Source: Raoultibacter phocaeensis (GTDB lineage Bacteria > Actinomycetota > Coriobacteriia > Coriobacteriales > Eggerthellaceae). Taken from it: DNA of 64,000 nucleotides. Below, one piece after another: positions 30,122 through 58,307 of the stretch. The DNA lies in NCBI RefSeq assembly GCF_901411515.1, contig NZ_CABDUX010000001.1:806001-870000 (forward strand), read 5' to 3'. Both the position numbers and the translations under genes were made by a program. The notes beneath the pieces were generated by a model. That model was not told the DNA's origin. It saw only the letters and a program-made list of their open reading frames with translations, and made no database searches. Within the stretch, counting starts at the first letter, position 1; each line of letters starts with the position of its first letter.

Positions 30122-31663
30122 CTACCCCACAACCCGGCCGAAGGCCATGCGCTCGAACTCGGCGGGCGGGAGGGCTGGGGCGACCGCGAATCCCTGGGCG
30201 AGATCGCAACCCATTGCGGCAAGCTGGTCGAGCTGCTCCTTTGACTCCACGCCCTCGCAGACGACCTGCATGCCGAGGCGCTTGGCCATGGCGACGACCG
30301 ACTCGACCACGGCCGAGGCGCGGGGGGAGCCGTCTGGCTGCGGCGCGGCGGGCGGCTTGCGCGGGTCTGCTGCGGGTGCGGGAGCGGCAGGCTGGGCGGG
30401 TTGCGCCGAGCACGGGCCAGGCGGCGCCCCCGGACCTGCAGTAAATTCGGGGGTAGAGGCAAGTGTGGCGACTGGTTCAGGGGCGGCGGCGCGCAGGAAT
30501 TCGCGGTCGAGCTTCAGGGTGTCGGCGCGGACGTCTTTGAGCATGCCGAGGGACGAGTAACCGCTGCCGAAGTCGTCGATGGAGCAGCGATAGCCCGCCG
30601 CGCGAATGCGGTCGACCAGGGCGGGCACGGCGTCCATGTTCTTCGCCACCAGGGTTTCGGTCAGCTCCAGGTCGAGCATGCACGCGGACACGGCGTAGCG
30701 CTTCCGCACCTCGTCGAACTGCGCGAGGAAATCCGGGTCGTCCAAGTGCACGCGCGAGAGGTTGACCGAGATCGGCAGCGGGCCCACTCCCGCGTCGGTC
30801 CACTTTTGCACGTAAGAACACGCCTGCTCGAACACGAACAGGTCGATTCGGGCGACGAAACCGTTCTTCTCGAAGAAGGGGATGAAATCGTCGGGCATGA
30901 CGAGGCCCCGTTCGGGATCGATCCAGCGCACGAGCGCCTCTGCCCCCGCTATCTGGCGCGTGCGCACGTCGAGCTTCGGCTGGAGAAATACCGCGAGCTC
31001 GCCGCTTTCGATGAGGTCGCCCATCCTGTTCTCGAGATCCTTCTCGCGCTGGAGCCTGCAGCGGTCGGCGTCGGAGTAGAAGCCGCACGCGTACAGGGCG
31101 CGGGAATCAGATTCCGTGGCGTTGCGCCGAGCCACGTTGGAGCGGTCGCGCATCTGCACGAGCGAAAGCGACGGATCGTCGATCACGTACACCCCGGCCG
31201 ACACGACGAGGTAGTATGTGCGCTCGGCGCGCTCGTTGAACCGGTTCAGTTCTTCGGACAGCATCTTCATGCGGCAGGCGATTTCTTCGCGGGGTATCGT
31301 TTTCACGAGCAGGACGAAGTGATCGGCGAACGTGCGGCAGAGCAGATCGCCCTCGTCCATCACGTGCAGGATGGCGCGGTGCATGTGCCGCAGCGTCGCA
31401 TCGCCGCGCTCGCTTCCGAACGCGTCGTTTACCAGCTTGAACCCGGCCAGGTTCACGGTCACGAGCATGTAGTCGCCCGGCGAGGCGGCACGGATTAGCG
31501 CGAGCGCCTCGGCTTCGAAACGGGCGGGTGAGTAGCCGCCCGTAACCGGATCGACGTAGGCCAGGTCGTACAGGCGCTTGTTCCTCTTCCGATACGCCTG
31601 GTAGACGACCAATGCAGCACCGAGGGAAAGCGCAAGAACCGCAGCAGCGAACGCACCGCCCAT
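30122..31663 (-). CDS. Cassette 1 gene g: membrane EAL protein with degenerate GGDEF
   Basis: The 513-residue protein has one N-terminal TM segment (residues 4-23), a degenerate GGDEF domain (about 35-190, TFADHF at the active site) and an EAL domain. All EAL catalytic motifs are kept: EALVRW, SVNLSR, LELTE, IDDFGSGYSS, LKLDREF, CEGVES and AQGF. It is therefore probably a working cyclic-di-GMP phosphodiesterase controlled by the inactive GGDEF. An Ala/Pro-rich insert of about 55 residues (with PGAPPGPCSAQPAQPA) splits the EAL barrel between LKLDREF and the ESVVAMAKRLG helix; the loop is normally only a few residues. The start at 31663 is three bases from the stop of the HTH gene. Its paralog is 49906-51531. 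Confidence 0.9.
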   Translation of the reverse strand: MGGAFAAAVLALSLGAALVVYQAYRKRNKRLYDLAYVDPVTGGYSPARFEAEALALIRAASPGDYMLVTVNLAGFKLVNDAFGSERGDATLRHMHRAILHVMDEGDLLCRTFADHFVLLVKTIPREEIACRMKMLSEELNRFNERAERTYYLVVSAGVYVIDDPSLSLVQMRDRSNVARRNATESDSRALYACGFYSDADRCRLQREKDLENRMGDLIESGELAVFLQPKLDVRTRQIAGAEALVRWIDPERGLVMPDDFIPFFEKNGFVARIDLFVFEQACSYVQKWTDAGVGPLPISVNLSRVHLDDPDFLAQFDEVRKRYAVSACMLDLELTETLVAKNMDAVPALVDRIRAAGYRCSIDDFGSGYSSLGMLKDVRADTLKLDREFLRAAAPEPVATLASTPEFTAGPGAPPGPCSAQPAQPAAPAPAADPRKPPAAPQPDGSPRASAVVESVVAMAKRLGMQVVCEGVESKEQLDQLAAMGCDLAQGFAVAPALPPAEFERMAFGRVVG

Positions 31664-31665
31664 CG

Positions 31666-31983
31666 TCAGGACAGGCGCCTGCGCGCATGGATGAGCGCGT
31701 CGAAGTCGCGGAACTGCCGCAGGAGGATCTTCGCCCGCGAGTAGCATTCACGGCCGAACGGCGTCGGGCTCGTACCCTCCTTGCCGCGCACGAGCAGGCG
31801 CGCGCCGATCTCACGTTCGAGGTCGGCGACCGCCTGGGACAGGCCCTGCACCGTGATGTCCTTCTCTTCGGCGGCGGCCGTGAAGCTGCCGCATTCCACC
31901 GCTGCGACGAAGTACTCGATCTGCCTGATCGTCACCGGGCTCCGTTTTCCCTGGCCCGTTTCGAGAATCACCGAGGTGCTCAT
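31666..31983 (-). CDS. Cassette 1 gene f: LysR-type HTH protein lacking an effector domain
   Basis: The 105-residue protein is essentially one winged helix: IRQIEYFVAAVECGSFTAAA, then QAVADLEREIGARLLVRG. Full LysR proteins are about 300 residues, so the ligand-binding half is missing. The frame is intact, and the paralog at 51531-52130 is short in the same way, so this looks like a settled form rather than decay. Its ATG overlaps the TGA of gene e (ATGA), and its stop is followed directly by gene g. It may read out the c-di-GMP or surface state set by e and g, but no such link is shown by the sequence. Confidence 0.85.
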   Translation of the reverse strand: MSTSVILETGQGKRSPVTIRQIEYFVAAVECGSFTAAAEEKDITVQGLSQAVADLEREIGARLLVRGKEGTSPTPFGRECYSRAKILLRQFRDFDALIHARRRLS

Positions 31984-34900
31984 CGGCGCACCGTCCTTTT
32001 GCGCGCGCGGTTTCGGCCGACGGCCGTCCGGCGGGTCGCGCCGATTCCGGGCCGTCCGCCGCTGCCGACAGATACGCGACGGTCGCTGGGCCCGCTGCCG
32101 CCCGAACCGCTTCCGCGCCGCCCGCCTCCCGGGCTGTCACCCGGGCCGTCGGGCTCGCCCTTCCGTGAGAGCCGCCATGCTGCGGCGAGCATGAGCGCGG
32201 CCAGCAGCAAGATGAGCCCGACGAGCGAGAAGGCATCGCCGTCGCCCGTGGTCGCGAGCCGCTTCGCCATGGCGTCGGCGGGATCGGCCGGCTTGGGCGA
32301 GGCGACGGCACCGAACGTCACCTCGATCTCGTGATCGGTCTGGACGTTGGAGAACGCGTAGCTATCGGGCGCGGGGGAAAGCTGCTCGCCGTCGACCGCC
32401 ACGCTCTCGACACGGTACCCCGCGTCGGGGTAGAAGTAGAACGAAGCGCCCGAACCCCGCTCGACGGTCGCGCTCTCGGGCGAAACGGTGCCGTTGCCGC
32501 CGTTCACCCGAGCGGTTATCATGCAGGACGCCGCCTGGCCGTCGGCCTCGAACGTGGCTACCACCTCGGCATCCGCCGTCACGTTGGAAAGCTCGTACGT
32601 GCCGATGGAGACGGGCTCGCCCGACCGCGCCGATCCGGTGTTTTGGATGGAGCCCGAAACGTCCTCGCCGTTCACCGCAAGCGAACTCAGATGGAAGCCC
32701 TCGTCGGCCTTCACCGTATACTCCACCGAACCGCTCAGCGGAACGAACGTCGTACCCGCAGGCGAGATCATGCCGCCTTCGCCCTCGGTCGACGCGCTGA
32801 CCTCGCAGAAATCGACCGGGTGCGGGGTATGCTCGTCCTCTCCGAGCTTCCTGAACTCCACTTCCACCACAAGGTCCTTCGTCACGTTGTCGAGCGTGAA
32901 CCAGTAACCCCCTGCCGAGGTGGCCGTGCGCGCGAACAGCGATCCGTCGGTGATGGGGTACGTGGGAATCTCTGCGCCCTCGCAGGTAACGCGCACGAGA
33001 TCGTAGCCCTCGTCGGGGTAGACATAGAAGGTGTGCGACAGGCCGCTCATGCCCTTGATGGCATCGGGCGTGACCGTGCCGCCGCCCCCCGAAACCGCGT
33101 TCGTCTTCACGCGCACGTTGATATCCACGAGCGGAACCGTCGGATCGGGCTCGGTCGCCTTCCTGAACGACACCTCGACCCGCGTATCGGCGCGCACGTC
33201 GGAAAGCAGGTAGCTCGAACCGCCCATCTGCAGGGCCTTGCCGTCAACGGTCACGAAATCGGTGATCCAGCCTTCGTCCGGAACGATCTCGATGAGGAGC
33301 GAATCGCCATCTTTGACCGTCGTCTCGCCGGACGGCGAAACGGTGCCGCCGCCGGCAGCCCCTACCCCGACCGTAACCGTATGGGCGTCGCGGTCGTCGG
33401 GATCGACGATGCCGCCCTCGGATTTCTCGAACACGGCTTTGATGGTATGGTCGTCATCGACGTCGTCGAAGCGGTAGACCGACGGGGCGTTTGCGGCGGC
33501 ACGCGTGTCGTTGTCGTAGCAGACCGTACCATCGACAACGAGGTTCGCCAGCTCAAAGCCCTCGTCGGGGGCGAGCGAGAACGTGCACGTGGAGCCCTTC
33601 TCGACCTGAACCTCGCCGCATGGCGAGATCGCGCCGCCGCCCTCGCACGCTGCCGTGATGATATGCTTCTCCGCCTCATCCTTCTCGAATGAGACCTCGA
33701 GTTTGTGGTCGCGCACGACGCTCTCGAACGTGAATGCGGAGCCTTCGACCCGATCGGTCACATCGATGCCGTCGACAGTGACTGCCTTGATCCGGTTGCC
33801 CGCGTCGGGCGCGAAGGCAAACGTCTGGTCGAGGCCGTTGGGCACGCGCACCTCGCCTTCGGGCGAGACGGTGCCGCCGACGCCTGCCGATGCGTCGATC
33901 GTGCGCGCAGGGACAGGCGGCGTCATGCCGGGCTTGTACGTGACGGTGACGGTCGTATTCTCGGCGATCGCACCCAGTTTGAACAGGGAGTTCGCAGGCC
34001 GCACCGGCACGCCGTTCACCGTGACCGCATCGACCGTGTAGCCCTCGTCGGCTGCGAACTCGACGGTCGCATCGGTGCCGACCGCGAGCACGGCGGAATC
34101 CAGCGCCGAAGCTTCCCCGCCGTTCAGCTTGATGCGGCCGTGGCCGTTGAGCACCTGCGCCGATACGAGCACGGTTTCTTCTTGGGCGTCGACGGGCTTG
34201 AACGCGGCCCGGATCGCATGGTCGGCGCGCACGTCGGAAAGCGTGTAGAAGTTCGCGCCCAAAAGCTCGATGCGGTTTCCGGCCTCGTCCCCGTCGAGGT
34301 ACACGGCGTCCACGGCGAAGCCCTTGTCGGGCAGCAGGAAGTACGTCTGATCGCTGCCAGCGGGGAGCCGGCTCGTGCCCACCGGGGTGATCTGGCCGCC
34401 CGCGCCCGCCGAGGCCTCGACCGCGAACACGTCCTTTCCGCTGTCGTAGACGACCGCGAACGCGCCGCCGAAGGTTTCGGTCGCGAACACGGCGAAGCGG
34501 TTGCCGTGCTCGTCTGTTTCGACGGCGGCCTCGTAGGTGCGCATGGCGCCCGCCGCATCGATGCCGATGACCGAAACCGTGCCCGCATCCGAAGGCACGG
34601 CGTCGCCGAGCGGGATCGACACGTCGAGGGAACCGAGGAACAGTGGCAGGTTCGACACGTCGTAGCGGCCCAGATCGAGCTGCCACACGCCCTCGACCGC
34701 CTTACCGCAAGCCGCCTGCTGCAGAAGACTGTAGGTAATGGTTTCCTTATCGTAGGCGCTCACCGAAAGGAACCCGAGGTTCCATATCCATTTCCCGTGC
34801 ACGATCACACCGCTCGGCGAGTCGATGAGCGTCTGCTCGCTGTAGTTGTCGCTCGTGACGACGGTTATCGTCTCTTCGGCTTTGTCGCCTGCGGCGTCGG

Positions 34901-35513
34901 TCACGGATACGGTGAACTCGTAGATGCGCTCGTCGACGAGCTCGGCGTTGTACGGATCTTCGTTCAGCGGAAGCGAGATGGCCCCGTCGGCGCTCTCACC
35001 CGCGAAAAAGCTCTCGTTCGCCGCCACTTCTTCGCCATGTACGCCGTAGGCGACGTAGGACCAAGAAAACGCGTAGGGTGCTGTGCCCTCGGCTTTTGCG
35101 CGCAGATCGTAGCCCTCGGAGGCGATCGTGTGCTTCGTCGACCCGAAATCGGGGGTTTTGGATACGATCACGAGCGGCGAGAAGGTGATCACCTCGACGG
35201 ACGTGGATACCTGGTTCGTGGCGGGATCGACAGTGGCGGTTTCGCTCGACACGCCCACCGCAGCGGATTTGGAAGCGGAGCCTTGGCCGGGCACGCCCGT
35301 CGATGCGGAGCCTTGGCCGGGCACTCCAACCGCGACGGATGCGGGGCCTTGGCCGGGTGCGCCCGCCTGCGCGAACGCGAATCCCCGGCCGGGCGCTCCC
35401 GTCAACGCGGAGGCGGCCCCGACGGGAGCGCACGATATGAGCAGGCACACGCACAACAGCGCAGCCAATCTCTTGTGAAAGCGTCTTCCCATACCGTTGT
35501 TGTTCTTCGCCAT
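31980..35513 (-). CDS. Cassette 1 gene e: giant membrane-anchored repeat protein
   Basis: The 1177-residue protein starts MAKNNNGMGRRFHKRLAALL with a signal peptide. Short Gly/Pro repeats follow (several PGQG units, residues 41-80), then an N-terminal β-domain. About ten repeats of the type GGTVSPEG, DQTFAFAPDAG, VTVDG and SFE run from residue 370 onward; this is the Flg_new_2/bacterial-repeat type common in adhesins. A TM segment near residue 1085 (LVGLILLLAALMLAAAW) is followed by a Gly/Ser/Arg-rich cytoplasmic tail ending RKRTVRR. There is no LPXTG motif, so anchoring is by the membrane segment. The paralog at 52127-57682 has the same start, end and repeats but is longer. Confidence 0.85.
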   Translation of the reverse strand: MAKNNNGMGRRFHKRLAALLCVCLLISCAPVGAASALTGAPGRGFAFAQAGAPGQGPASVAVGVPGQGSASTGVPGQGSASKSAAVGVSSETATVDPATNQVSTSVEVITFSPLVIVSKTPDFGSTKHTIASEGYDLRAKAEGTAPYAFSWSYVAYGVHGEEVAANESFFAGESADGAISLPLNEDPYNAELVDERIYEFTVSVTDAAGDKAEETITVVTSDNYSEQTLIDSPSGVIVHGKWIWNLGFLSVSAYDKETITYSLLQQAACGKAVEGVWQLDLGRYDVSNLPLFLGSLDVSIPLGDAVPSDAGTVSVIGIDAAGAMRTYEAAVETDEHGNRFAVFATETFGGAFAVVYDSGKDVFAVEASAGAGGQITPVGTSRLPAGSDQTYFLLPDKGFAVDAVYLDGDEAGNRIELLGANFYTLSDVRADHAIRAAFKPVDAQEETVLVSAQVLNGHGRIKLNGGEASALDSAVLAVGTDATVEFAADEGYTVDAVTVNGVPVRPANSLFKLGAIAENTTVTVTYKPGMTPPVPARTIDASAGVGGTVSPEGEVRVPNGLDQTFAFAPDAGNRIKAVTVDGIDVTDRVEGSAFTFESVVRDHKLEVSFEKDEAEKHIITAACEGGGAISPCGEVQVEKGSTCTFSLAPDEGFELANLVVDGTVCYDNDTRAAANAPSVYRFDDVDDDHTIKAVFEKSEGGIVDPDDRDAHTVTVGVGAAGGGTVSPSGETTVKDGDSLLIEIVPDEGWITDFVTVDGKALQMGGSSYLLSDVRADTRVEVSFRKATEPDPTVPLVDINVRVKTNAVSGGGGTVTPDAIKGMSGLSHTFYVYPDEGYDLVRVTCEGAEIPTYPITDGSLFARTATSAGGYWFTLDNVTKDLVVEVEFRKLGEDEHTPHPVDFCEVSASTEGEGGMISPAGTTFVPLSGSVEYTVKADEGFHLSSLAVNGEDVSGSIQNTGSARSGEPVSIGTYELSNVTADAEVVATFEADGQAASCMITARVNGGNGTVSPESATVERGSGASFYFYPDAGYRVESVAVDGEQLSPAPDSYAFSNVQTDHEIEVTFGAVASPKPADPADAMAKRLATTGDGDAFSLVGLILLLAALMLAAAWRLSRKGEPDGPGDSPGGGRRGSGSGGSGPSDRRVSVGSGGRPGIGATRRTAVGRNRARKRTVRR

Positions 35514-35514
35514 G

Positions 35515-36090
35515 CTAATTCGCCACCAAAATCGTGAGTTTCGCGCCTGCCCGCCCGACGAGATCCTCGGTTTCGGGATCGTGGGCCGAGAACAGCGCCG
35601 TGCATTCGTATTCGCCGGGATCGAGATCCTGATCGAGCTTCGCCTTCTGGATGTGGTGATTCGGCTCGATCATGCCTGAGCGGAACACGAGCTCCCCCGT
35701 ATCGTCGCGGGTTATGTCCACCTGCATGAGGTAGCGGTTGCCCGGAACGTTCTCGATGCGCAGCTCGCCTTCGGAGAGCCCGTCGGCGAACTCCACCTTC
35801 GAGGTGATGGAGATGTTGAACATGCCCTCCTCCACCACGCGATCGAGCTCGGCCTGTATCTCTTCCTGCGTCTTGTTCTCCAGCTGGCCGAACTCTGCGT
35901 TCGGATCGCGCAGGGAACCGCCCGTGCACGATCGGACGAGGAGAAGGAGCGCGACGATGACGAGCACGACGGCCACGCCGATGAGCACCCTGCGGCGGAT
36001 GTTCGCGCGGCGGGCTTCTTCGGTTTGTTGCCCGTCGGGCGCACCGTCTTTTGGCTGCTCGCCGTATGCGGTGCCGTTCGGCTCGTTCAT
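35515..36090 (-). CDS. Cassette 1 gene d: single-pass membrane protein of an unnamed family
   Basis: The 191-residue protein has a short cytoplasmic N-terminus, a TM segment (about residues 30-50) and an outer domain of about 130 residues. The start of that domain reads NPNAEFGQL-like, then TQEEIQAELDRVVEEGMFNI. Later come ENVPGNRYLM, DDTGELVF, and a closing AKLTILVAN. Four proteins of this kind occur in the window (genes b and d of each cassette). The d type shares IEPNHHIQKA; the b type has IKPDSYLE. Similar small β-domain proteins occur in other Gram-positive surface loci. No function is known to me; a helper or anchor for the secreted partner is a guess. Confidence 0.75.
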   Translation of the reverse strand: MNEPNGTAYGEQPKDGAPDGQQTEEARRANIRRRVLIGVAVVLVIVALLLLVRSCTGGSLRDPNAEFGQLENKTQEEIQAELDRVVEEGMFNISITSKVEFADGLSEGELRIENVPGNRYLMQVDITRDDTGELVFRSGMIEPNHHIQKAKLDQDLDPGEYECTALFSAHDPETEDLVGRAGAKLTILVAN

Positions 36091-36124
36091 GGTTCGCTCC
36101 TCCTCTCGGTTCGTTCAGTCGATG

Positions 36125-36155
36125 CGGCCGGCCTGCGGGGGAAGCGGGCCGGCCG
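36125..36155 (-). promoter_or_regulatory. Hairpin between cassette 1 genes c and d
   Basis: CGGCCGGCC (36125-36133) pairs perfectly with 36147-36155 around a 13-base loop, about 20 bases after the stop of gene c. There is no T-run. Cassette 2 has an unrelated strong hairpin at the same place (58447-58485). It may stop or slow most transcription, or protect the 3' end of the gene c message. Confidence 0.5.
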
Positions 36156-36174
36156 TCATGCGTATGCCGCGCGG

Positions 36175-36885
36175 TTAGGCGGTCGGGGCGTCCGGATCCG
36201 GGGTCGGGTCCGGGTCGGGAGTCGGATCGGGGGTCGGATCGGGAACTACGGGGGTGCTGGGCTCGGTCGTGTCGAGTGCCACCGTGTAGGTGATGGTGAA
36301 CGCCTTCGTCGCGGTGCTGAGCGCCTTGTTGAGCTGCGAGTTCGTTGCAGCGACCGTGAAGGCGAGTTCGCCGTTCACGTCTTCCGCACCGTCGACGCCC
36401 GCCGTTTTGGCGACGATCTTCCAATCGAGGTCGGTCGCGGTCTCCGTCACGGTCCATGCCGTGCCGGTCCCGGGCGTGAGCTTCATGTTCATATCGCCGT
36501 AGGTCTCGGTGCTCGTGCTGGCCGTAGTGAGCGCGGTGTCCTTCAGGGCCCATCCGCTTTCAACCTTAGTCTCGGCCTTCGTCACCTTGACGGGGAGCGC
36601 CGACTTGTTGACCATCTTGTACACGCCCGCGGTCGGAACCGTCGTGGTGCCGCCGACGGTGGGCGCGGCGACGGTCATGGTGAGGGGCAGGGCAACGTCG
36701 ATCTGCGCCGCGAACGTTTCCACGAGCACTTCGGTCTTCGCAGGAGCCTCGGCCTTGCCGTCGGGCACTTCGAGCGGACTGGTGTTCATAGTGCCCACGC
36801 CCGCTGCTGCGAACGCCGCGGGCGCGGTTCCGAGCACGAGTGCGGCCGAGAGGGCGGTCGCCAGGGCTATGTTCTTCTTTTTCAT
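36175..36885 (-). CDS. Cassette 1 gene c: small secreted β-domain protein, strong RBS
   Basis: The 236-residue protein has a signal peptide (MKKKNIALATALSAALVL, cut after AFA), one β-rich domain, and a tail of Asp-Pro-Thr repeats (about residues 205-235). The domain carries VDVALPLTMTV-like strands and YKMVNKSALPVKVTKA. The same pattern occurs in gene c of cassette 2 (YNIVNNSVYPIKVASV). AGGAGG lies seven bases before the ATG, the strongest site in the cassette, so it is probably the most abundant product. Hence it could be a fibre or coat subunit that the larger proteins join. The fold and role are inferred; I recognise no named family. Confidence 0.7.
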   Translation of the reverse strand: MKKKNIALATALSAALVLGTAPAAFAAAGVGTMNTSPLEVPDGKAEAPAKTEVLVETFAAQIDVALPLTMTVAAPTVGGTTTVPTAGVYKMVNKSALPVKVTKAETKVESGWALKDTALTTASTSTETYGDMNMKLTPGTGTAWTVTETATDLDWKIVAKTAGVDGAEDVNGELAFTVAATNSQLNKALSTATKAFTITYTVALDTTEPSTPVVPDPTPDPTPDPDPTPDPDAPTA

Positions 36886-36985
36886 GGGTACCTCCTATTG
36901 TCGTATTCCTTCTGGTTTCTCCCCCGTAGCGCCGGCCGCCGGGTTCAGCTGCCGCGGCCACGGGCTTCGTGCTCCGGCATCGGCA

Positions 36986-37567
36986 TCACCCCTTCACGAT
37001 CAGCGTTACTTTTGCAGCAGCCTTGCCAACTTCTTCATGCGAGTCCTGGTCGAGGGCCGTGAACAGCGCCGTGGCCGGGTAGTTACCCTCGTCGAGGTCT
37101 TGGATGAGCTCGATGGTCTCGAGGTAGCTGTCGGGCTTGATGGCCTTGGACTCATATACCGTCTCGCCCGTATCGTCGAGGGTGATGGCAACCTGCATGA
37201 GGTAGCGGTTGCCCGGCACGTTCTCGATGTAGGCGGTTCCGGGCGATGCGCCGTCGTCGAACTCGATGGCGCTTGCGATGGAGATGTTGAACATGCCCTC
37301 CTCCACTACGCGGTCGAGCTCGGCCTGGATCTCCTCCTGCGTCTTGTACGGGGCCTGGCCCGTCTTCGCGTTCGGGTCGAAGATGTCCCCGCCGGCGAAG
37401 AAGAGCGCCGCCCCACCTGCGATCAGGAGCAGAAGCAGCAGCACGAGCACGATGAGGATGCGCTTCTTGCGCTTCTTGTTCGCCTCGCCCGCATCGCCCT
37501 CTGCAGCGAGCTGCGCGCCTTCGAGCCCTTCCGAGCCTGCCTGATCCTGTACGTCCGTATCTGCCAT
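36986..37567 (-). CDS. Cassette 1 gene b: single-pass membrane protein of the same unnamed family as d
   Basis: The 193-residue protein starts MADTDVQDQAGSEGLEG, has a basic stop-transfer (NKKRKKR), a TM segment (about 38-58), and an outer domain. The domain opens DIFDPNAKTGQAPYKTQEE and closes KAAAKVTLIVKG. It keeps EEGMFNISI and ENVPGNRYLM like its three paralogs. The frame is open much further upstream, but only as a shadow of gene a. The start at 37567 is 24 bases after the stop of gene a. Its counterpart in cassette 2 (59246-59806) is 186 residues. Confidence 0.75.
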   Translation of the reverse strand: MADTDVQDQAGSEGLEGAQLAAEGDAGEANKKRKKRILIVLVLLLLLLIAGGAALFFAGGDIFDPNAKTGQAPYKTQEEIQAELDRVVEEGMFNISIASAIEFDDGASPGTAYIENVPGNRYLMQVAITLDDTGETVYESKAIKPDSYLETIELIQDLDEGNYPATALFTALDQDSHEEVGKAAAKVTLIVKG

Positions 37568-37590
37568 GGTTCGCCTGTCTCCCTTTCCCG

Positions 37591-40500
37591 TTACTTGCCC
37601 TGCCATGCGCCCGCACCCTCGATGGTGAAGACGATTCCCGCGAAGTTCTGCGGCCCGTCCTGCGGCTTCCATTCGACGCCCTCGGGGATGGTCAGGCCGA
37701 ACTCCACGTCGAGCGTCGAGGGGTTCGTCTGCGTCCCCTTGGCCAGCACGAAATCGGGAGCCGCGCCCGCCGCAAGCGACGCCTCGCCGCCGAGCTTGAG
37801 CGCGAGATCGTTGCCCTTGCCGTCGCTCATTGTGAGCTCGACGTCGGCCGAGCCCTGCGGGAACACCTTCTCGGCGTCTGCTGCCGCCGTGCACGCCGCC
37901 GCAGCCACGCGCACGTCGCCCGAGCTGCGCGACGAGAACGCGCCCTTGGCCGCGCTCACCTCGCCCGTGTAGGCCTCGATGCCGATGCACGGCTTGATGG
38001 GGGCCGTCACGTCGATGACGAGGAGCTCCTGCCACTGCGCGTACAGGGTGACCGTCTTGTTCTTCTCGCTGGTGACGTTGTTGGCCTCGGCCTGGTCGGC
38101 GAACGCGTCGCCCGAGCCGTCGGCCTTCGTGTTCCAGCCCGTGAACGCGAAGCGCCTGCCGTCCGCCGTGCACACAAACGCGTTCTTCGGCAGGTTCTTG
38201 GCCGTGTCGTAGACCATGTCGACGTCGGCCATGCTGCCCGACAGCGTGCTGCCCTCGGGCTTGTTCGCGTCGAAGTGGAGCTTGTAGGGGTTGGCGGTCC
38301 ATCGGATGAGAAGCCATACCGCATCCTTCGGCTCACCCGGATTGCCCGTACCGAAGTTCGCTTTCTTCACCACTTCGCCGGGTTGGTGAACCGAGGTGCT
38401 GCCGTCGGCATGGTTACAGGTCCAGCCCGTTGCCGTGTAGCCCGTTTTCCAACATTCCGTCGTCGGCGGGAACTGGGGGATGGTGACATCTCGATCGTAT
38501 TCGGCCTCCATGGTGTCGCGCCAAGCGGCCGATGTCGGATAATTGCCGTCCATAGTGATAGTGTATTTGTTATGCTGCCAATGCACGTACAGGTAGATGA
38601 TGCCTCCGCGTGTGTCGGCCTCGGGCTGTTCGGCTAACACATCAACAACCTTCATGGAAGCACTTGCAGCGGTCGTAGTGCCTTGGCAGTTCGGTCGCGT
38701 GTTCCATCCGCTGAACCAGTATCCCGTGCGGAAATAAGGATTATTGGGCATCGTTATGGTTCCATCGTAGGTCACGGTGAGTTCTTGGGGGTCGGTTCCC
38801 GTCGTCGCATCGGTACCATTGCGGTTGAACCTCACTTTGTACTGCTTTGGGACCCACTTGGCATAGAGCGAAACGGTTACGTTGTCCTGCAGTGTAAGAT
38901 TCGCATACGCCTTTCCCGCTTCGTAGGTAGCGCCCTTGCCGTCCGCCTGCGTGTTCCAGCCACCGAATGTATAGCCTTCTCGAGCAAGGTTACCAACCCC
39001 CGGCATGGTCACGTTGACTGAAGTGGTAGTGCTGATAGAGCTGGGCGCGTTTCCCGAACCCCCATTTGCACCGAAGGAGATCCTGTAGTTGTTCAAGCGC
39101 CACTGCGCGTAGAGCGTCACGCGGGCTCCATCGGTAGCGGTAAGGTTTCTTTTCTTCGCACCTGGCTGATAGATCGTGCCGCCGTTGCGCTCGGTACCCC
39201 AGCCAGTGAACGTCTTGCCGGGAAGATTGAGCGAGCCTTTGTCAGAGAACGTGAGGTCCTGGTCGTACTTGACCGTCTGTTGCGCTGGGCGCGAACCTGC
39301 TCCGTAATTCTCGTCATAGTACACGTAATAGGTGATCGGCTCCCATACGGGATAGAACGAGACCTTTCCTGTTGTCTCGCCCTCGTTGTTTTCCGCAAGC
39401 ACGCTAATTACGTTGGCGGAAGCCCCTACGCTGTAGGTGGTGCCCTTGCCGTCATAGCGCGTATTCCAGCCAACGAATTTGTAGCCCGTTTTCGTGAACC
39501 GGTTCTGCGGCACGGTCACCTTCCCGCCGTAATAGCACGTCGGACTATCGGCAATCGGGTAATCGCCCGAAACGCCTTCGGGGCCTGTTATGCTGTACTT
39601 GGAGAAACCGACCGTGTATGTTCTACCCTTCCATTGGGCGTAGAGCGTAATGGTTGCCTTGTCGCTTGCGGAGAGCTTCGAGACCACCTGGCCTGCTTTA
39701 TACGAGGTGCCCGATCCGTTTTGTTGCGTGTTCCAGCCGTTGAATACGTAGCCGAATTTCCCCCATGCGCAGCTCGATAGGGTGACGTTTGCATCGTAGT
39801 TAATATTGGTATGGCTAGCTGGCCCTGAGCCAGAGTCGGAGCCGTTGCCGTTGTATACGATGTTGTACTTTACGATCGACCACTGCGCATAGAGCGGAAC
39901 CGTAGCATCTGGCCCCGGATCAAGGTTTAGCGATTGATTTGAGCTGTACGATGTACCGCTACCGTTTTCTGCCGTATTCCACTGAGTGGACGTATACCCT
40001 TGGCGCGAGAATCCGCAGGTCGAAACATTGGGCACCAATACCGATTGCCCATAGGTAACCGTTTGAACGTAAGGACTTGGGCCACTGCCGCCATTTGCGT
40101 TGTACACGATCTTGTACGTATAACCTTCGACTTTGATCGTGAAAGAAGTCTCAGCTACATTGTTTATCGTCACTCCGCGATACGTGCAATTGAGGGTAAA
40201 CTTGACTGTGGTTGTTCCGACATTGACCGGCAGATAACCGTACACTTTTGAGGAACCTACTCCACTTCCGTCGTCTATACCAGGCCCAACGTATTTTGCA
40301 ACCTTCCCATCTGGCGCTGTTCTAGGAATGCTCGCCTGAACCGAGCCAAAACCCAACGTAGAGAAGTTGGTCGTCGCAGTCACATCTTTAGGATCAGAAG
40401 ACACTCTATAGGTAAGCTTCAATTCGGAAACGCTTGCAGACACAGTTATGGGCTTAGCCTTGCTGGTGCCTACCTTCGTCGCCCATCCGGCAACAGCGCT

Positions 40501-43500
40501 CTTCGGGCTGTACACCGTGGGCAGAACGCCCCCGAATGGCGAGTTCCCTCCTGATGGAGCGGCGGATCCGAGGCTGAGCACGTCTGTAAGCTTTGTGCAG
40601 CCCCTAAATACGTTGTCTTCCACCTTCGTAACGTTTGGACCGAGAATGACCTTCGAGATGTTCGTGCAGCCGTTGAACGCGTACGAGCCGATCGTCGTAA
40701 GCTTGATCGGCGCTTCGAAGGCCGTAAGGGATGTGCAGTTGCTGAACGTCGAACCGCCGATGGTTGTCACGTTTTCGGCACCGTTCACCGTCGCAAGGCT
40801 CGTGCAGTCCGAAAACGCTGCGTTGCCGAGGATGGTCACCTTGTCTGAGATGTCGATGGACGGCAAAGCAGAGCATCCGTAGAATGCAGAATTGCCGATT
40901 GACGAAATTTTGTCCATGCCAACAACGGACTTGAGCTTGACGCAGCCGTAGAATACCTCGTCTTTCAGCTCGGTGACGCCAGACGAAATATTCGCCGTTG
41001 TGAGCGATGCGCAGTCTTTGAAAGCCCATGCGCCTACGCTCGCCGTACCGTAGGGCAAGTTAAGCTCTTTGATGGCCGTTCGCTCGAACGCCGCGTCGCC
41101 GATCGTTAGGCCGTCTGCCACAGAAAGCTTGCCGTTAGCCCGGCTGATGGTCAAAGTTCCGCCGAGGCTGGCGCAGCCTTTGAACGCATTGTTGCCTATG
41201 CTTTGCAACGAGCCTTCCATGGTGAAGCCCGAATTACCCGTAAAGCCGTTCCACGAAAGGCTTGTGCACCCTTGGAAGGTTCCCACTTCGATTCGATGGA
41301 TCTGATACGGAAGCGTTACGTGGCTTACCTTCGTACAATTCGCGAAAGCATAGGGCCCGATGTAGGTGAGCGTGTCCGGAAGGTTCTTGACGCTACCCAT
41401 GTTCGAACAGCCCTCGAACGCTCGGGGGCCGATGTACTCGAGATCCGTCGCGAGCTTGACGCGGTTCCACTGCATGCCGGTGCAGCCTTGGAAGGTTCCC
41501 TCTTCGATGCGTTTGACGGAGGGGATTCTTAAGAATCTCGTGTTCGCATCGTCAACGTCTTTGGCCAGATTCGTGCAGCCGGCGAACGCGTAGGAACCGA
41601 TGCTCGTAACGGTTTCGGGTATGGTGACGGCACGCATGTACGTCGAATTCCTGAACGCGCTCGGGCCGACGGATGTCAGCGTGGTCGGCATTTTGAAGTA
41701 CGTCCAGCTGAGTTTGGGCGTATCCCGGAAGCAGCTGTCGGGGATGGACGGCACGGAGGTTGCGGAGAAGTCAAAGCGCTCGAGAACCGTGCAGCCCTTG
41801 AACGCCTGCGCCCCCATACTCTTGATGGTGCTCGGGAGCTTCACGCGCCGAAGGCCCGTGTTGCCCGCGAAACCTCGGGCCGTCACGGCCGAAACCGTGT
41901 AGCTCTTGCCGCCGTACGACACCGATGAGGGGAACGTAACGAGAGACGTACTGTTGGGCACGCTCGCGCTCGCCTGCCCGATCGACACGGTGCCGTCGGC
42001 GAGCATGGTGTAGGTGTAGTTGCCGCTCACGAACGTGTCGCCCGTTGCGCGGGGGGCGACCTCCGCCGTCGCGAGGGGCTCGGCCGAAAGCGCGGCGGTC
42101 GAGCGCAGGATGGCGTAGTCGGGGACCACCGGCTCGGCCGGCTCCTCGGTTCCGGGTTCGGGTTCGGTGCCTTCCGCGGGCTCTTCGCCTTCCGGGGTCT
42201 CGCCCGGCTCGCCTTCCGCAGGTGCGTCGCCTTCGTTGCCCTCGGTCCCGTCGTCAGCGGGAGCTTCGGGATCGCCCTCGGTCCCGTCGTCCGCGGGTTT
42301 ATCGCCCTCGGTGCCTTCCCCACCTTCTGCGGGGGGCTCTTCGGCGGATGCTTCCACCACCTCGACGGTGCGGGATGCGCGGGCGAGCGTTATGCCGTCG
42401 AGCTCGAGCGACACGGCCACCTCGGTGGCGCCCGCCTTCCTGCCCTCGACGGTGCCGTCGGCGTCGACCGAGAGGGGCTTGGCCGCGTAGGCGAACGACG
42501 CCTCCACGCCTTCCGGCGCTTCGAGGGTCCCGCCGTCGAACAGGTCCGCGGTCTCGCCGACTTCGACGGTCAAGGGCTCGGCTGGAAGGGCCACGCCGTA
42601 GGGCAGCACGTGGTTGCCGCTTGCCACGACGCCGGGGTTCCACGCGTAGCCTTCCGCTTCAGTAGCCGGGCAGTAGAGGGAAACGCCGCTACATCCCTCG
42701 ACGGCGCTCGGGGCCGCATCGACCTCGGAGAGCGCGACGATGCGCGCAAGCGACGCGCAGTCCGCGAAGGCGCGCTCGCCCGCGGCCTCGACCGACGCGG
42801 GAAGCACGACGTCTTCGAGGGCCGTTCCCTCGAACGCCGAGGCGCCGACGGTGCGCAGGCCCTCTTCGAGCGAAGCCGCCGCGAGGTTCCCGCATCCTGC
42901 GAACGCGGATTCGCCGATGGCCGTTACGGAGGCAGGCACGGCCACCGACGCTATCCCCGTTCCCGCGAAGCCGCGCGGGGCGATCTCGGAGACGCGGTAG
43001 GTCACGCCGTCGACCGTTCCCGTCGAGGGGACGGCGAGCTCGCTTTCCGGCTCGCCCTCGCCCTGCCAGAAAACCGACAGCGTGTAGTCATTGAGCAGCG
43101 TGTAGGCGAAGCCCGCTTCGTCGGGCTCCGGCGGGGCGGCCGGTTCGCCTTCGCCGTCGGGGGAGGGGGTCGGTGCGGCAGGCTCTTTGAAGCTCGCGAA
43201 GCCCGCTTCCTCCCATACGGCTTTGCGCTCGGCGCGGGCCTCTTCGCCGGGAAGCACCACAGTGGCTTCCGCCTTCGTCTCGTCGGCAAACGCGGCGGAG
43301 TCGATGGAATCCACGTGCCCCGGAGCGACGATGGTCGAAAGCGACGTCGCGTCTGCGAAGGCCGCCTCGGCGATCATAGTGGTTTCGGGGGTGATGACCG
43401 CAGATTCGCGTCCCGCTGCGGGCGCGTACAGAAGCTCGGCGAGGTCGCGGGTGTAGAGCATGCCGTCGCGCGCCGCGAGCGCCTGGTTGCCCTCGCCCAC

Positions 43501-44366
43501 CGAGACGGCCGCGAGCTCGGCGGTTCCCGAGAACACGGAGGCGTCGGCGGAAGTTGTCTCATCCGGGAGGTACGCGACACCCTTTTTTGCCGCGGGGACG
43601 AAGAGGAGCTCGGCGAGGCCCCGGTCGAAGAGCATGCCGTCGAAGCTCGCGTAGGTTTCGCTCTTCTCGTCGACGAAGACGGATTCGAGGCCCGCGAGCG
43701 CCTCGAGCGATTCGATGTCGATGTCCCGGACGGTTCCGGGTAGCGAGAGCGACCTTACTTCAGATGCGCTGAGATTTGCGCCCCCCCCCGAATGGTGACG
43801 GCCGAAACGGAGTACGTATCGTCGCCCGTTTTGATTTCAGTCGGCACGACGACCTCGGTCGGGGCCTGATCACCGTAGAAACCCGTGAGGGTGACAGTGG
43901 TGCCTTCGGGGTTCACGCTGTATTCGAGGCCGTCGAACACGAGCGTGCCCACTTGGGCTTTCGGGGCCTCGGACGCAAGCGGCACTTCGCTTACCGCTTG
44001 GCTCTGCTGGGGCGCTTTTCCGGCTTGGCCAGCGGCGTCAGCGGTTGCCGACTTTTCGGCGGCCTTGCCGAGCTCGACGGTTTCGGAGATGCGCTCGGGG
44101 GTAATTGCCGGTGTGCCTTCTTCGGCGGGCTGCTCGGGCTCGGCTGCAGGCTCGTGGACGGGCTCCTTCGCAGAGTCGTCCGAGGCGGCGGGAGGTGCGG
44201 AAGCGTCGGGAGCGGCCTTGCCAGACGCGGCGCCCAAACCCTCGTCGGCCATGGCCCACGGCACGCCGGTCACCATCAAGGAAAACGCGAGCACGACGGA
44301 TAGTACGACTTTCGCGCCCTTGCGGGCCGATATCTTCCCCATTGTATTGCGTTTCATTGTACTCAT
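37591..44366 (-). CDS. Cassette 1 gene a: giant secreted LRR/InlB-repeat protein, out of frame at a G9 tract
   Basis: The signal peptide and first 200 residues (MSTMKRNTMGKISARKG to about VTIRGGAQ) are in one frame, 44366-43755. The rest, about 2050 residues, is in another from the tract at 43781-43789 to the stop at 37591. One more G (or two fewer) would join them: VTIRGGG, then NLSASEVRSLSLPGTVR, with no stop between. The joined protein of about 2259 residues has BspA-type leucine-rich repeats in two blocks. An acidic Pro/Glu linker (GEEPAEGTEPEPGTEE) lies between the blocks. Eight or more InlB_B repeats (NANGGSG, GW.T and LYAQW pattern) follow, then a C-terminal β-domain (APIKPCIGIEAYTGEV). 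In this sequence the gene is OFF. LRR/InlB proteins bind host surfaces in other bacteria. No C-terminal anchor is seen. Confidence 0.8.
43781..43789. repeat. G9 (C9) tract at the frame break of gene a
   Basis: Nine C on the plus strand (nine G on the coding strand) lie exactly where the reading frame switches. With nine G the protein ends 8 codons later at TAA. With ten G the frame runs on into the 2000-residue body. This is a classic slipped-strand switch, or a base-calling error in a homopolymer. Confidence 0.85.
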
Positions 44367-44421: not shown

Positions 44422-44450
44422 ATAATTGGTTCGAATTAGATCGGTGTCAA
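44422..44450 (-). promoter_or_regulatory. Predicted promoter of cassette 1
   Basis: On the minus strand a perfect TTGACA (44445-44450) is followed after 17 bases by AATTAT (44422-44427). This lies about 55 bases before the start of gene a in an AT-rich patch. No other clear promoter is seen before the next six genes. Confidence 0.6.
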
Positions 44451-49905: not shown

Positions 49906-51531
49906 CTACCCCACGGCCCGGCCGAAGGCCATGCGCTCGAACTCGGCGGGCGGGAGGGCTGGGGCGACCGCGAAGCCCTGGGCGAGGTCGCAGCCCATGG
50001 CGGCGAGCGCTTCGAGCTGCTCCTTTGACTCCACGCCCTCGCAGACGACCTGCATGCCGAGGCGACGGGCCATGGCGACCACCGACTCGACCACGGCCGA
50101 GGCGCGGGGGGAGCCACCGGGCTGCGGCTCGTCAGACGACGGGTACGTTGCGGGCTGGGCGGGCTGCGGCGCGGCGAGCGCAGGTGCGGCGGCTAGCGGG
50201 GCGAAGCGTGCGGGATCGGTAGCCGCGGACGTAGCAGGGTGTGCGAGATCGGTAGCCGCGGCCGTTGCGGGCTGGGCGGGGCGCGCCGAGCACGGGCCAG
50301 GCGGCGCCCCCGGATCTAGGGCGGGTTGAGGGGCGGCGGCCTTCTCGTCACCCGCCCCGTGCAGGAACTCGCGGTCGAGCTTCAGGGTGTCGGCGCGGAC
50401 GTCTTTGAGCATGCCGAGGGACGAGTAGCCGCTGCCGAAGTCGTCGATGGAGCTTTTGAAGCCTGCGGCGCGGATGCGGTCGACGGCCTCGACCGCGAGG
50501 GCGGGGGCGGTAGCCGCGAGCGTCTCGGTGAGTTCGAATTCGAGCAGGTGCGCGGGCACGCCGTAACGCTCGCGGATTGCTACCAGGGGCGCAGGGAACC
50601 GCGGATCGTCCAAATGCGCGCGCGACAGGTTTACCGAAATCGGTACGGGGTCTTCGCCCGCGTCGATCCACCGTCTCAGATTGAGACATGCCTGTTCGAA
50701 CACCCAAAGATCGATCCGCACAATGTAGCCGTTCCTCTCGAAGAACGGGATGAACTCGTCGGGCATGACAAGGCCCTGCTCGGGATCCTGCCAACGCACA
50801 AGCGCCTCGGCCCCCGCCACCGTGCGGGTTTGCAGGTCGAGCTTGGGCTGGAGGTAGGCTGCGAGCTCGCCGCTTTCCACAAGATCGCCCATCCTGTTCT
50901 CAAGCTGCTTCTCGCGCAGAAGCCCCAGACGATCGGCATCGGAGTAGAAGCCGCAACGGCAAAGGGAGTCCGATCCCGCCGTATTCGCATTGCGCCTGGC
51001 CACGTTGGAGCGGTCGCGTATCTGCACGAGCGAAAGCGAGGGATCGTCGATCACGTAGGCACCCGCGCTCGTAGAAAGGTAGTACTTTGCACAAGCGCCC
51101 TCGTTGAACCGATTGAGCTCGCGGGAAAACACCTCCATGCGCCGTATGATCTCTGCCTCGGGCATCACCGTGCACAGCAGGATGAAATGGTCGGCGAACG
51201 TGCGGCAGAGCAGATTGCCCTCGTCCATCAAACGCGCGATGGTGCGGTGCACGTGGCGAAGCGTTGCATCGCCCCGCTCGCTTCCGAAGGCGTCGTTCAC
51301 GAGCTTGAACCCGTCAAGATTGAACGTCACGAGCACGTACGTTCCTGCAGGAGCCGATCGGATACGCTCGACAGCCTCGGCCTCAAAGCGGATCCACGAG
51401 TACCCGCCCGTCACCGGATCGACGTACGCGAGCTCTCTCAACCGACGGTTTCTTCTTCGATACGTGGCGTACGCAAACAGTGCGCCTACGACCAAAAAAG
51501 CAAACGCTGCTGTGTGTATTGCGCCGTGCAT
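49906..51531 (-). CDS. Cassette 2 gene g: membrane EAL protein with degenerate GGDEF
   Basis: The 541-residue protein is the paralog of 30122-31663. One TM segment (residues 4-22), a degenerate GGDEF (TFADHF), then an EAL domain with all key motifs (EALVRW, SVNLSR, FELTE, IDDFGSGYSS, LKLDREF, CEGVES, AQGF). The Ala/Pro/Thr insert in the barrel is about 83 residues here, 28 more than in copy 1. It shares PGAPPGPCSARPAQPA with that copy. The ATG at 51531 overlaps the TGA of gene f (TGATG); a GTG one codon before is possible. It is probably a cyclic-di-GMP phosphodiesterase. Confidence 0.9.
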   Translation of the reverse strand: MHGAIHTAAFAFLVVGALFAYATYRRRNRRLRELAYVDPVTGGYSWIRFEAEAVERIRSAPAGTYVLVTFNLDGFKLVNDAFGSERGDATLRHVHRTIARLMDEGNLLCRTFADHFILLCTVMPEAEIIRRMEVFSRELNRFNEGACAKYYLSTSAGAYVIDDPSLSLVQIRDRSNVARRNANTAGSDSLCRCGFYSDADRLGLLREKQLENRMGDLVESGELAAYLQPKLDLQTRTVAGAEALVRWQDPEQGLVMPDEFIPFFERNGYIVRIDLWVFEQACLNLRRWIDAGEDPVPISVNLSRAHLDDPRFPAPLVAIRERYGVPAHLLEFELTETLAATAPALAVEAVDRIRAAGFKSSIDDFGSGYSSLGMLKDVRADTLKLDREFLHGAGDEKAAAPQPALDPGAPPGPCSARPAQPATAAATDLAHPATSAATDPARFAPLAAAPALAAPQPAQPATYPSSDEPQPGGSPRASAVVESVVAMARRLGMQVVCEGVESKEQLEALAAMGCDLAQGFAVAPALPPAEFERMAFGRAVG

Positions 51532-52130
51532 CACCGCGGAGAACGCTTTTGGCTACGCAGAAACATATCGAATTCGTTGAAATGCAGCAGAAGCGATTTC
51601 GCCCGCGCGTAGCACTCGAACCCGAATGCCGTCGGCGCCGTTCCCTGCCGCCCTCGTTCGAGCAGCAGCGTGCCGATCTCGCGCTCGAGATCGGCCACCG
51701 CTTGCGATATGCCCTGTACCGTGATGTCCTTCTCCTCGGCAGCGGCCGTGAGGCTTCCGCACTCCACCGCCGCCACGAAGTATTCTACCTGCTTGATCGT
51801 GAGCGGGCGGCGCTTGGCGGGTTCGCCGTGCACGGCCTGACCGGCGTGCGCGCGCTGCTGGGGCTGTGCCTCGCGGGCGCGCGCGTGCTGCACCTCACGC
51901 TCGCCATGCGCACGCTGCCCCGTCTGCGCCTCGCGGCCGCTCGAATGCTGCGCTTCCTGCGTTTCGCGATCGTCGCCGTGCGGGTGCTGCCCCGCTTGGC
52001 CAAAGCGACTGCCGTGGCCGATCTGGCCTGTGTGCGTCTGCCCGCCGACGCGGCTTTTCTGCCCGAACAGCAGGGCAGCTTCCGGACTCATGAACGCAGG
52101 TGCAGGCCGTGGAGGCGTTTGCGTGCTCAT
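51531..52130 (-). CDS. Cassette 2 gene f: LysR-type HTH with a long low-complexity N-terminus
   Basis: The 199-residue protein has the same winged helix as 31666-31983 (IKQVEYFVAAVECGSLTAAA), with no effector domain after it. The first 115 residues are new: a Gln/His/Arg/Ala-rich stretch with loose repeats of the form REAQ..QRAHG. The ATG at 52130 overlaps the stop of gene e (ATGA). A longer frame upstream is only a shadow of gene e. The long N-terminus may be disordered. Confidence 0.82.
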   Translation of the reverse strand: MSTQTPPRPAPAFMSPEAALLFGQKSRVGGQTHTGQIGHGSRFGQAGQHPHGDDRETQEAQHSSGREAQTGQRAHGEREVQHARAREAQPQQRAHAGQAVHGEPAKRRPLTIKQVEYFVAAVECGSLTAAAEEKDITVQGISQAVADLEREIGTLLLERGRQGTAPTAFGFECYARAKSLLLHFNEFDMFLRSQKRSPR

Positions 52131-55100
52131 CGGCGAACCGTCCTTTCCCGTGTCGAGGAACGACGCCACGCAACGGCGGCAACGCCCGCCGCCAGAGCCG
52201 CAGCGCCTATCGCAAGCAGAACGAGTGCAAGCGTCGCATCGCCTGTTTGCGCGAAGCGGTTGATAGCCTGACCAGGGCTGTTGGGTACGGGCGCGGTTTG
52301 CGCCTCGAACACCACTTCGAGCGTATGGTCGGCCTGCACGTTCGCAAACGTGTACCCGGCTGCTGCGGGCACTTCTGCGCCATCCACCTTCACCGTACCG
52401 ACCTCGAAGCCAGCCTTGGGAACGAAGGAGAAGGTTTTGCTCGCACCCTTCGCCACTTTGACCGCACCCGACGAAGCGCCGCTTAGATCGGACACGCATC
52501 CCTGGCCCGCCGCAGTGACGTTAATGGTGAAGAACGTGCCGGCGGGATCGGGGTTCAGATCGGGGTTCGGATCTGGGTCAGGATCGGGATCCAGATCAGG
52601 CCCAGGCCCAGGGTCAGGCCCGGGGCCAGGTCCCGGACCCGGATCGCCGCCGCTTTGCTTGAACGCGGCGTGGATGGACGTATCGGCCGTGATGTCGAAG
52701 AGCGTGTAGGTGGAGCCGCTGTATTCGAACGTGCGGCCGTCGACCGTAAGCGTATCGAGCTCGTAGCCGGTATCGGGCACCATCGTGAACACGCGCGATT
52801 CGCCGCGCAGTACGATCACTTCGCCCGTCGGGTCGATCGCACCGCCCTCGCTTGACGAAGCGCTCACAGTCACGGTGTTCGGCACGGGAGGATCGACCGA
52901 TTTGGGCGCGAACACGGCGTGGATGCTATGGCCGGCATCGACGTTCTCGAAACGGTACGAGCCGCCCGCGAACACATCGGCTGCAACGGGCGAGCCGTCC
53001 ACTTCAACGCGCGAAAGCCCGTATCCTTCGTCGGGCACGAAGGTGAACAGCGCCGATGTGCCCTGCGCCACCTTCACCTCGCCCAGAGGCGAGACGGTGC
53101 CGCCCGCAGAGGCGCTTGCCGTAATCGAATGCACAGTGGGCAGCACCGGATCAGACTCGTCGGGCCCAAGAGCGCGAAACGTGGCTGCAACCTCGGTATC
53201 GCCCGCAATATCGAACAGAGTGTACACGAAATCGATCGGGACCACGGGGTTTCCGTTAACTGTCACCTCGTCGACCGTGTAGCCCGCATCGGGCAGCAGC
53301 GTAAACGAAAGGCTCTCGCCCCGCTTCACGCGGATCTCGCCCGCAGGCGAGATGGCGCCGCCCGCACCCGCCGTTGCCTTAACCGTCGCATAGGTGGGAT
53401 CGTCGGGCCTGCCCGCATCGGCAGCGAACGCCGCATGCACGACGGTATCCGCAGATACGCCCGTCAGCGTGTAGGTCGAGTTTGCCACCTGATCGGTCAC
53501 TTCGACGCCGCCGACCGTGAGCGATTCGAGATGGTAGCCCGCATCGGGCTTGAGCGCGTAGGAGACCGTTCCGCCATCGGCCACCCGCACCGTTCCGGAC
53601 GGCGATATCATGCCGCCCGTGGTTGCCGAAGCCGTCACGCGATGGACGGTCACCGGGGGCGGTACCGGATCGTCCTCGGCGAGCTTCTTGAACGTCACCC
53701 GCACAAGCATGTCTTCGGTCACCGAATCAATGGTGAACCAGTAGCCACCGCCCGCACCCGCAGCCGAGCGCGCCGAAAGCAGGGTGGCCGGCGTGAGCGG
53801 ATGGGCAACCGTCGGCTCGTCGTTCACGTACACCGCATCGAGGTCGTAGCCTTGGTCGGGATACACGTAGAACGTCTGCGACGATCCGTGCGCCATAACG
53901 AGCGAGCCAGAGGGGGAAACGATGCCGCCCCTTTCGCCATCAGCGCCAACCTCGATCTTCACATTCACGTTTATGAAGGGGTCGTCGGGCACGGGCGAAT
54001 CGACCTGCTTGAACGAAACGGTCACGGCGGTATCGGCTCGCACATCTGAAACGCGGTACGACGTGCCGCCGAGCTGGACCGTCGAACCGTCTACCTTGAC
54101 TTCATCCACTTCGTAGCCTTCGTCGGCGATGAGGGCGACGAGCAAACTCGCGCCGTCGAGCACCGTTACGGGGCCTTCGGGCGAAACCGAGCCGCCGCTT
54201 CCCTCGACCGACGCCGTCACCGTATGGGTGAGCATCGGCATCGGCGGATCGTCGGTATCGGCGAACTCGACCCGAACCGTCGTATCGGCCTTCACGCCGA
54301 ACAGGGTGTAGCTCGATCCCGTGAAGGCGAACGTGCGACCTGCCACCGTGAGCGAGGCCACCTTCTTGCCGGCATCGGGTAGGAAGGTAAACGTCTGCGA
54401 CTGCCCGTCGGGCACGAGCACCGCACCCGCAGGCGAAACGGTGCCGCCTTCCCCGGCTTCGGCCGTCACGGTGTGGAAGACGAGCGGATTATCCCCGCCG
54501 CCAGACGCGGGGGCGAACGCGGCCTCGATGGTGTGATCGGCCGCGAGATCGCGGAAGCGGTAGGACATGCCGTCAAGCGTGGCGGTAATATCAACGCCGT
54601 CCACCTTCACCGTATCGAGCTCGTAGCCCGCATCGGCGACGAACGTGTAGAGCACCGAGCCGCCCGCGGCCATGCGCGTCTCCCCCAAAGGCGAGATGGA
54701 GCCGCCCCTGCTCGCGCTCGATGCGATGGTGTACACGACGGGCTTATCGGGATCGGGCTCGCCGCTGCCGAGCTCGCGGAACGTCGCGTGTATCGTCGTG
54801 TCGGCTTTGATGTTGAACAGCGTGTAGGTGAAGCCCGTCACCTCGACCTTCTGGCCGTCCACGCGCACCTCGTCGAGCGTGTATCCCTCGTCGGGCTCGA
54901 ACAAGAACATCTGCGCCGAGCCGTAGGCCACACGCACATCACCCGCAGGCGAGATGGAGCCGCCGTCGCCCGCGCTCGCGTGCACCGTGGCGTAGGCGGG
55001 CGTCGGCACATCGGGGTCCGGATCGGGGTCGGGATCGGGGTTGTCGGGATCGTCGGGATCAACCGGCACGGTTCCCTCTTTCGCAAACAGCGCGCGAACG

Positions 55101-57682: not shown

Positions 57683-57683
57683 G

Positions 57684-58307
57684 TCAGTTCGCCACCAAAA
57701 TCGTCATCTGCACGGCCGCCTGGCCGATCAGTTCTTCTGTTTCCGTATCAAATGCATAGAACACCGCGGTGCAGGGGTACGTTCCCGCATCGAGGTCTTC
57801 GCTGAGCGCCGCCTTCTGGATATGGCGGTTCGGCTCGATCAGGCCCGATGCATACACGACCTCGCCGGTATCGTCGCGCGCGATCTCAACCTTCATGAGA
57901 TAGCGGTTGCCGGGCACGTTCTCGATGCGCAGCTCGCCTTCGGAAGCGCCGTCGGCGAACTCCACGGTGGTTGCGATGGCCACGTTGAACATGCCCTCGT
58001 CTACCACGCGGTCGAGCTCGGCCTGGATTTCCTCCTGGCTCTTGCCGTCGAGCTGCCCCACCTCGGCGTTCGGGTCGCGCGCGCCTGTGGTATCGGAGCA
58101 GGAGCGAAACACCAGCACGCACGCGACGATGAGCGCGATCGCCGCGACGGCGACGGCTACGTAGAAGCCGATCGGGCGACGGCGTTGCTGCGGGTCGGGC
58201 GCAGCCGAGGGCGTGGGAGGCTTATGGTTGAGCGGCGCGGCCGCGTGCTTTCGCGGCGCGGGCTCGGGCCGTTCGATCTGCTGGTTCCCGTCATCTGGTG
58301 CGTGCAT
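57684..58307 (-). CDS. Cassette 2 gene d: single-pass membrane protein
   Basis: The 207-residue protein has a cytoplasmic tail of about 50 residues, a TM segment (about 49-68, FYVAVAVAAIALIVACVLVF) and an outer domain (DPNAEVGQLDGKSQEE, then EEIQAELDRVVDEGMFNVAI, IEPNRHIQKAALSEDLD and closing QMTILVAN). It is closest to 35515-36090. Two bases separate its stop from the start of gene e. The cell role is unknown. Confidence 0.75.
   Translation of the reverse strand: MHAPDDGNQQIERPEPAPRKHAAAPLNHKPPTPSAAPDPQQRRRPIGFYVAVAVAAIALIVACVLVFRSCSDTTGARDPNAEVGQLDGKSQEEIQAELDRVVDEGMFNVAIATTVEFADGASEGELRIENVPGNRYLMKVEIARDDTGEVVYASGLIEPNRHIQKAALSEDLDAGTYPCTAVFYAFDTETEELIGQAAVQMTILVAN

Follow-up and report, generated by a model that had tools for sequence, protein, structure and literature searches.

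A run of exactly nine G on the minus strand of Raoultibacter phocaeensis DNA, at positions 43781-43789 of the 64,000-nucleotide stretch analyzed here (the window), sets the reading frame of a gene for a giant repeat protein. Judged from its anatomy and from comparison with other loci, the tract is best explained, with a probability of roughly 0.7, as a slipped-strand contingency locus in a multi-gene phasome that is OFF as assembled. According to this explanation, slippage at the replication fork within the G run would alter the tract length by one unit, and each such change would shift the ~2060 codons downstream of it into or out of the frame of the signal peptide. A random on/off pattern of the surface protein among cells would follow, with the OFF genotype yielding only an exported stub of 203 aa and the ON genotype the full protein. 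We infer slippage, reversibility, surface display, and benefit as parts of this best explanation. The term "OFF" describes the assembled consensus and is conditional on a correct call of the tract length.

The interrupted gene and its paralogues

The tract and its flanks read ...CACCATTC-GGGGGGGGG-CGCAAATC... on the minus strand (43789 to 43781; C9 on the plus strand) and lie ~580 bp into a 6.8-kb gene, i.e., in its 5′ tenth. The ORF at 44366-43755 crosses the G9 tract and encounters a stop 26 bp beyond it, giving a product of 203 aa, and the register that is open 3′ of the tract is stop-free as far as 37591. Codon-usage scoring, which is blind to stops at the junction, also assigns one register to the coding sequence ahead of the tract and another to that beyond it. 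Hence, the sequence, the ORFs, and the codon-usage frame bear out the sequence-only reading that the frame breaks exactly at nine G, and run-length statistics (see below) likewise mark the tract. The frame is set by the tract length at this point and the gene is open elsewhere. The size of 2259 residues given in that reading needs a small correction, since 44366-37591 corresponds to 2259 codons including the stop and hence to 2258 residues.

The 5′ ORF (43755-44366, minus strand), which is the product of the assembled OFF genotype, comprises a signal-peptide-like N-terminus, an Ala/Pro-rich linker, and the start of an N-terminal module, as read from its translation and from the presence of the module at four other loci in the same genome. 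The 3′ part (37591-43780, minus strand), ~2060 codons in the other register, carries BspA-type LRR_5 repeats together with Flg_new (List_Bact_rpt) repeats, scoring 434.7 bits (cut-off 27.7) and 169.7 bits, respectively, against Pfam. No other stops or frameshifts are present within these ~2060 codons, and an ATG downstream of the tract is not associated with a signal peptide. A search of the C-terminus by sequence and Pfam revealed no LPXTG motif and no other anchor domain. The gene is thus predicted, on its domain content and its N-terminus, to encode a BspA-type LRR_5 surface protein that would be exported via the signal-peptide-like start and displayed on the surface. Surface proteins with BspA-type LRR_5 and Listeria-Bacteroides repeats constitute a protein family that is not generally defined by a phase-variable tract; the likeness to this family lies in the domain content as identified by Pfam.

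Direct reading of the sequence upstream of the start codon points to a putative promoter (TTGACA-17 bp-AATTAT; 44422-44450, minus strand). The next gene (36986-37567, minus strand) encodes a ~193-aa single-pass membrane protein, and the gene that follows (36175-36885, minus strand) a 236-aa secreted protein of no known family, as judged from its sequence. The ORF at 35402-36553 was rejected as a gene since it represents an arginine-rich wrong frame. DNA homologous to that encoding the small membrane protein follows the other LRR genes as well, which corresponds to a cassette arrangement. Such repeated cassettes are seen in the window at 30122-44366 and 49906-64000 and at loci L077, L078, and L085; they contain an LRR/Flg_new giant, a small membrane protein, small secreted proteins, a Flg_new_2 giant, and an EAL/GGDEF gene.

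Four further loci of the same genome match the first 192 residues of the protein. In 20 relatives, these residues gave nothing except one weak match in another genus, and no orthologue carrying the N-terminal module was found in the congener. All five module loci encode LRR_5/Flg_new giants and all five carry a G9 (43781-43789 and, in contig coordinates, C1:871741, C1:877565, C1:889705, and C2:570317). The frame is broken at the G9 in four of them, the locus at 43781-43789 included; the paralogue at C1:877565 has flanks of different length and its gene is open across ~1500 codons. The 3′ part of one paralogue, with Flg_new repeats (59803-64000, minus strand; Pfam and codon frame), continues past the window and has its own G9 break at C1:871741. 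Moreover, relative to C2:570317 and to the open paralogue, the gene has diverged mainly at third codon positions, both before and after the tract, so the 3′ half, although out of register, remains conserved at the protein level. The same test was uninformative for C1:871741 and C1:889705, where the downstream regions have diverged too far.

G9 tracts across the genome

In the 3.86-Mb genome, the numbers of G7, G8, G9, G10, G11, and G12 runs are 25, 5, 24, 0, 0, and 1, respectively. Extrapolating the decay from 25 to 5 gives ~1.25 expected runs of at least nine vs 25 observed. In the window, G/C runs of length 4, 5, 6, 7, 8, and 9 occur 274, 80, 18, 0, 0, and 3 times; the three runs of at least nine compare with 0.44 expected in dinucleotide shuffles (P ~0.013), and a pattern lacking 7s and 8s yet having three 9s appeared in 0 of 300 shuffles. 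The plain 8-mer count in the window is borderline (3 of 100 shuffles). The excess of tracts is moderate within the window alone and clear genome-wide; the within-window excess taken by itself is borderline and was set aside as support. In the congener, 21 of 24 tracts of at least eight with no ambiguous base within 1.4 kb are nine long. The congener has seven tracts that exceed nine; ambiguous bases lie within 75 bp of five of them, and these longer tracts were not taken as length variation. Tract lengths are therefore near-invariant at nine in two species, with one genome for each, and nine represents either a mutational equilibrium or a biased length calling. Raw counts of G9 words reach the hundreds in some of the relatives G028, G011, G004, G005, and G023 (~1600 in G028). 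A contig search for same-species loci had as its sole match one locus in a distant Clostridia MAG.

The second G9 in the window (27430-27438, minus strand) is in frame in the gene for a 1429-aa N_methyl (pilin-like) protein (24343-28632; Pfam and codon frame), and the congener homologue of this gene (L111) also has a G9. The region 18647-28632, which holds this tract, is a type IV pilus-like locus (T2SSE, T2SSF, N_methyl). The third (1302-1310, minus strand) is antisense, giving a C9 in the sense strand of the plus-strand EAL/GGDEF ORF at 989-4090, again in frame (Pfam and codon frame). Elsewhere in the genome, the G9 at C1:1075620 breaks a gene for an RCC1/SpaA/Cna_B protein with an LPXTG anchor, unrelated to the LRR paralogues, and direct reading of the flanks shows that the one at C2:1050499 probably interrupts a 515-aa gene within its signal peptide. 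The latter is the sole broken locus with the opposite offset; the other five of six share one offset. In-frame G9 tracts are found in a LicD gene, a glycosyltransferase family 2 gene, and the genes for a solute-binding protein and a 1476-aa Glug-motif protein, and also within the signal peptide of a Flg_new/DUF11 surface protein. Sense-strand C9 runs, likewise in frame, occur in the GGDEF/EAL gene (window 1302), a sigma-54 activator gene, and a gene for an Ig-repeat surface protein. On our own gene calls, ~10 of ~16 coding tracts are in frame and 6 are out; tracts in frame occur in non-surface genes too, and the one G12, in a lysA-like gene, has a called length that maintains the frame.

Tracts outside coding regions include a G9 immediately upstream of a GGDEF gene's start codon, an arrangement that is identical in the congener (L146), and a G9 that separates TTGACA from a -10-like box ahead of a 1586-aa ORF (L083 5001-5009). 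Two congener loci (L141 6001 and 11109) have TTGACA-15 bp-TATCCT/TATCAT with the G9 in the spacer, an arrangement expected at ~0.35% per tract. This location suggests that transcription may be controlled by tract length. One intergenic G9 is part of a ~34-44 bp block that is conserved in the congener in poorly alignable surroundings. For some tracts, e.g., between the ends of convergent genes, it is not evident what a change in length would do.

Two G7/C7 runs interrupt genes as well, one for a conserved membrane protein (L126 ~2002, i.e., C2:468712) and one for a probable surface protein (L127 ~2002, i.e., C2:734919); these are real variants or assembly indels. A G7 at C1:236010 was rejected as a frame break since it concerns two adjacent genes, nusB- and xseB-like.

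The proposed phasome would hence encompass about two dozen G9 tracts. Genic tracts, some of them in signal peptides, would act on translation, and a G9 that forms part of a -35/-10 spacer probably acts on transcription. The targets would be LRR adhesins, other surface proteins, enzymes for cell-surface sugars, and c-di-GMP genes.

Mismatch repair, strand polarity, and rival explanations

MutS_I was found in 0 of 21 genomes of the order searched, compared with 11 of 14 control genomes. If canonical mismatch repair is missing, slipped G runs should stay largely uncorrected. In meningococci, the instability of G5-G13 tracts depends on both length and mismatch repair; insertions are possibly favored up to G10, and a model that includes such a bias has its peak at G9 (PMC4085013). 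The gene dnaA, at C1:929551, lies between the last minus-strand and the first plus-strand G9 of its contig. With the polarity switch point in C2 taken as the terminus region, an assumption, the G is on the inferred leading strand in 25 of 25 tracts of at least nine vs 21 of 25 G7 runs, a difference that is not significant (Fisher p 0.11). In genes on the lagging strand (three cases), the sense strand carries C9, suggesting that polarity follows replication and not translation; tract strand and gene strand are associated with an exact p of ~0.002, using hand-assigned genes. The polarity was rejected as proof of a special mechanism, since most G7 runs (21/25) likewise have G on the leading strand; only the association of tract strand with gene strand points toward one. 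Polarity is weaker in another genus. The idea that G9 tracts form a length-pinned, replication-oriented class, in which lineage-specific replication biases beyond per-gene selection maintain a genome-wide set of switches in this MutS-less lineage, appears doubtful to us.

The uniformity of tract lengths bears on the possibility that the G9 reflects a sequencing or assembly miscall, such that the true run length differs, the gene is intact, and the platform compresses longer G runs to nine. The genome without any run of 10 or 11 fits such compression, as do the common offset of five of six broken loci and the two G7 runs that interrupt genes, one of them the conserved membrane protein gene. Yet the G12 in the lysA-like gene is called in frame, the congener, which is a separate assembly, likewise has its peak at nine where the sequence is clean, a length of nine keeps about ten coding tracts in frame, and the remaining broken locus has the opposite offset. 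We consider a miscall unlikely, if still worth weighing. The same preference for nine, fixed across many genes, together with the one offset common to most breaks, could also be expected if RNA polymerase or the ribosome slipped on a fixed G9 and thereby produced some full-length protein. Such programmed recoding is highly improbable given the opposite offset at one broken locus and the many tracts that are in frame or in promoters, where recoding is needless.

That a single frameshift inactivated the gene permanently, and that it is now decaying, would explain the disrupted consensus frame and is in keeping with the intact orthologue not found in the congener. However, ~2060 codons persist with no further stop or frameshift, a G9 break of like kind recurs in three paralogues, and conservation at the protein level is seen on either side of the tract, which makes permanent inactivation very unlikely. 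The two G7 interruptions leave room for assembly indel noise or mutational decay. Collectively, the site has the anatomy expected for a member of the contingency-locus class, and the layout proposed from the letters gains from this anatomy, from G9 in paralogues, other surface genes, and promoter spacers, from the conservation of some tracts between species, and from a genome without MutS. The part that fits less well is that lengths are uniformly nine in two species, which is not obviously predicted for freely slipping tracts.

Relation to known systems and biological meaning

The proposed mechanism is, in principle, ordinary simple-sequence phase variation, which is already known. In Neisseria, poly-G/C located between the -35 and -10 elements controls the promoter. 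One locus here and two congener loci, each with a G9 separating TTGACA from a -10-like box, resemble this arrangement as far as the sequence goes. In Campylobacter jejuni, ~29 poly-G/C tracts, mostly concerned with surface structures, include loci such as capA and cj1295 (PMC4965091). As in C. jejuni, which belongs to a different phylum, tracts of similar length are present within and between genes, and the frame is set by length. In-frame lengths in C. jejuni are 8-11 and switching at ~1e-3 per division has been measured (PMC4965091), whereas nearly all tracts here are nine and are known from the sequence. Propionibacterium (Cutibacterium) acnes has 54 variable tracts with variation across 90 strains, and the length variation followed clades and was judged to be a slow accumulation (PMC4746626). 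The likeness to C. acnes is that both are actinobacterial, with almost only G/C tracts that are located in genes and upstream of genes; variation in C. acnes was drawn from 90 strains, while each species here is represented by one genome. Inversions at the capsule locus of Eggerthella lenta, which probably belongs to the same bacterial family as the present genome, also give reversible surface variation; these are recombination-based, with no homopolymer mechanism reported (PMC13174815). Two E. lenta papers describe other routes of variation and no homopolymer mechanism, and our searches of one literature library returned no report of a poly-G phasome for Coriobacteriia.

The absence of MutS, the sharp preference for nine, and the strand polarity together provide a natural test of how the length of G tracts is set. 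If the tracts slip, a poly-G phasome comparable to the Campylobacter and Neisseria ones would set the expression of giant adhesin, surface sugar, and c-di-GMP genes. In this scenario, strain phenotypes, immune recognition, and phage sensitivity would be partly random between colonies.
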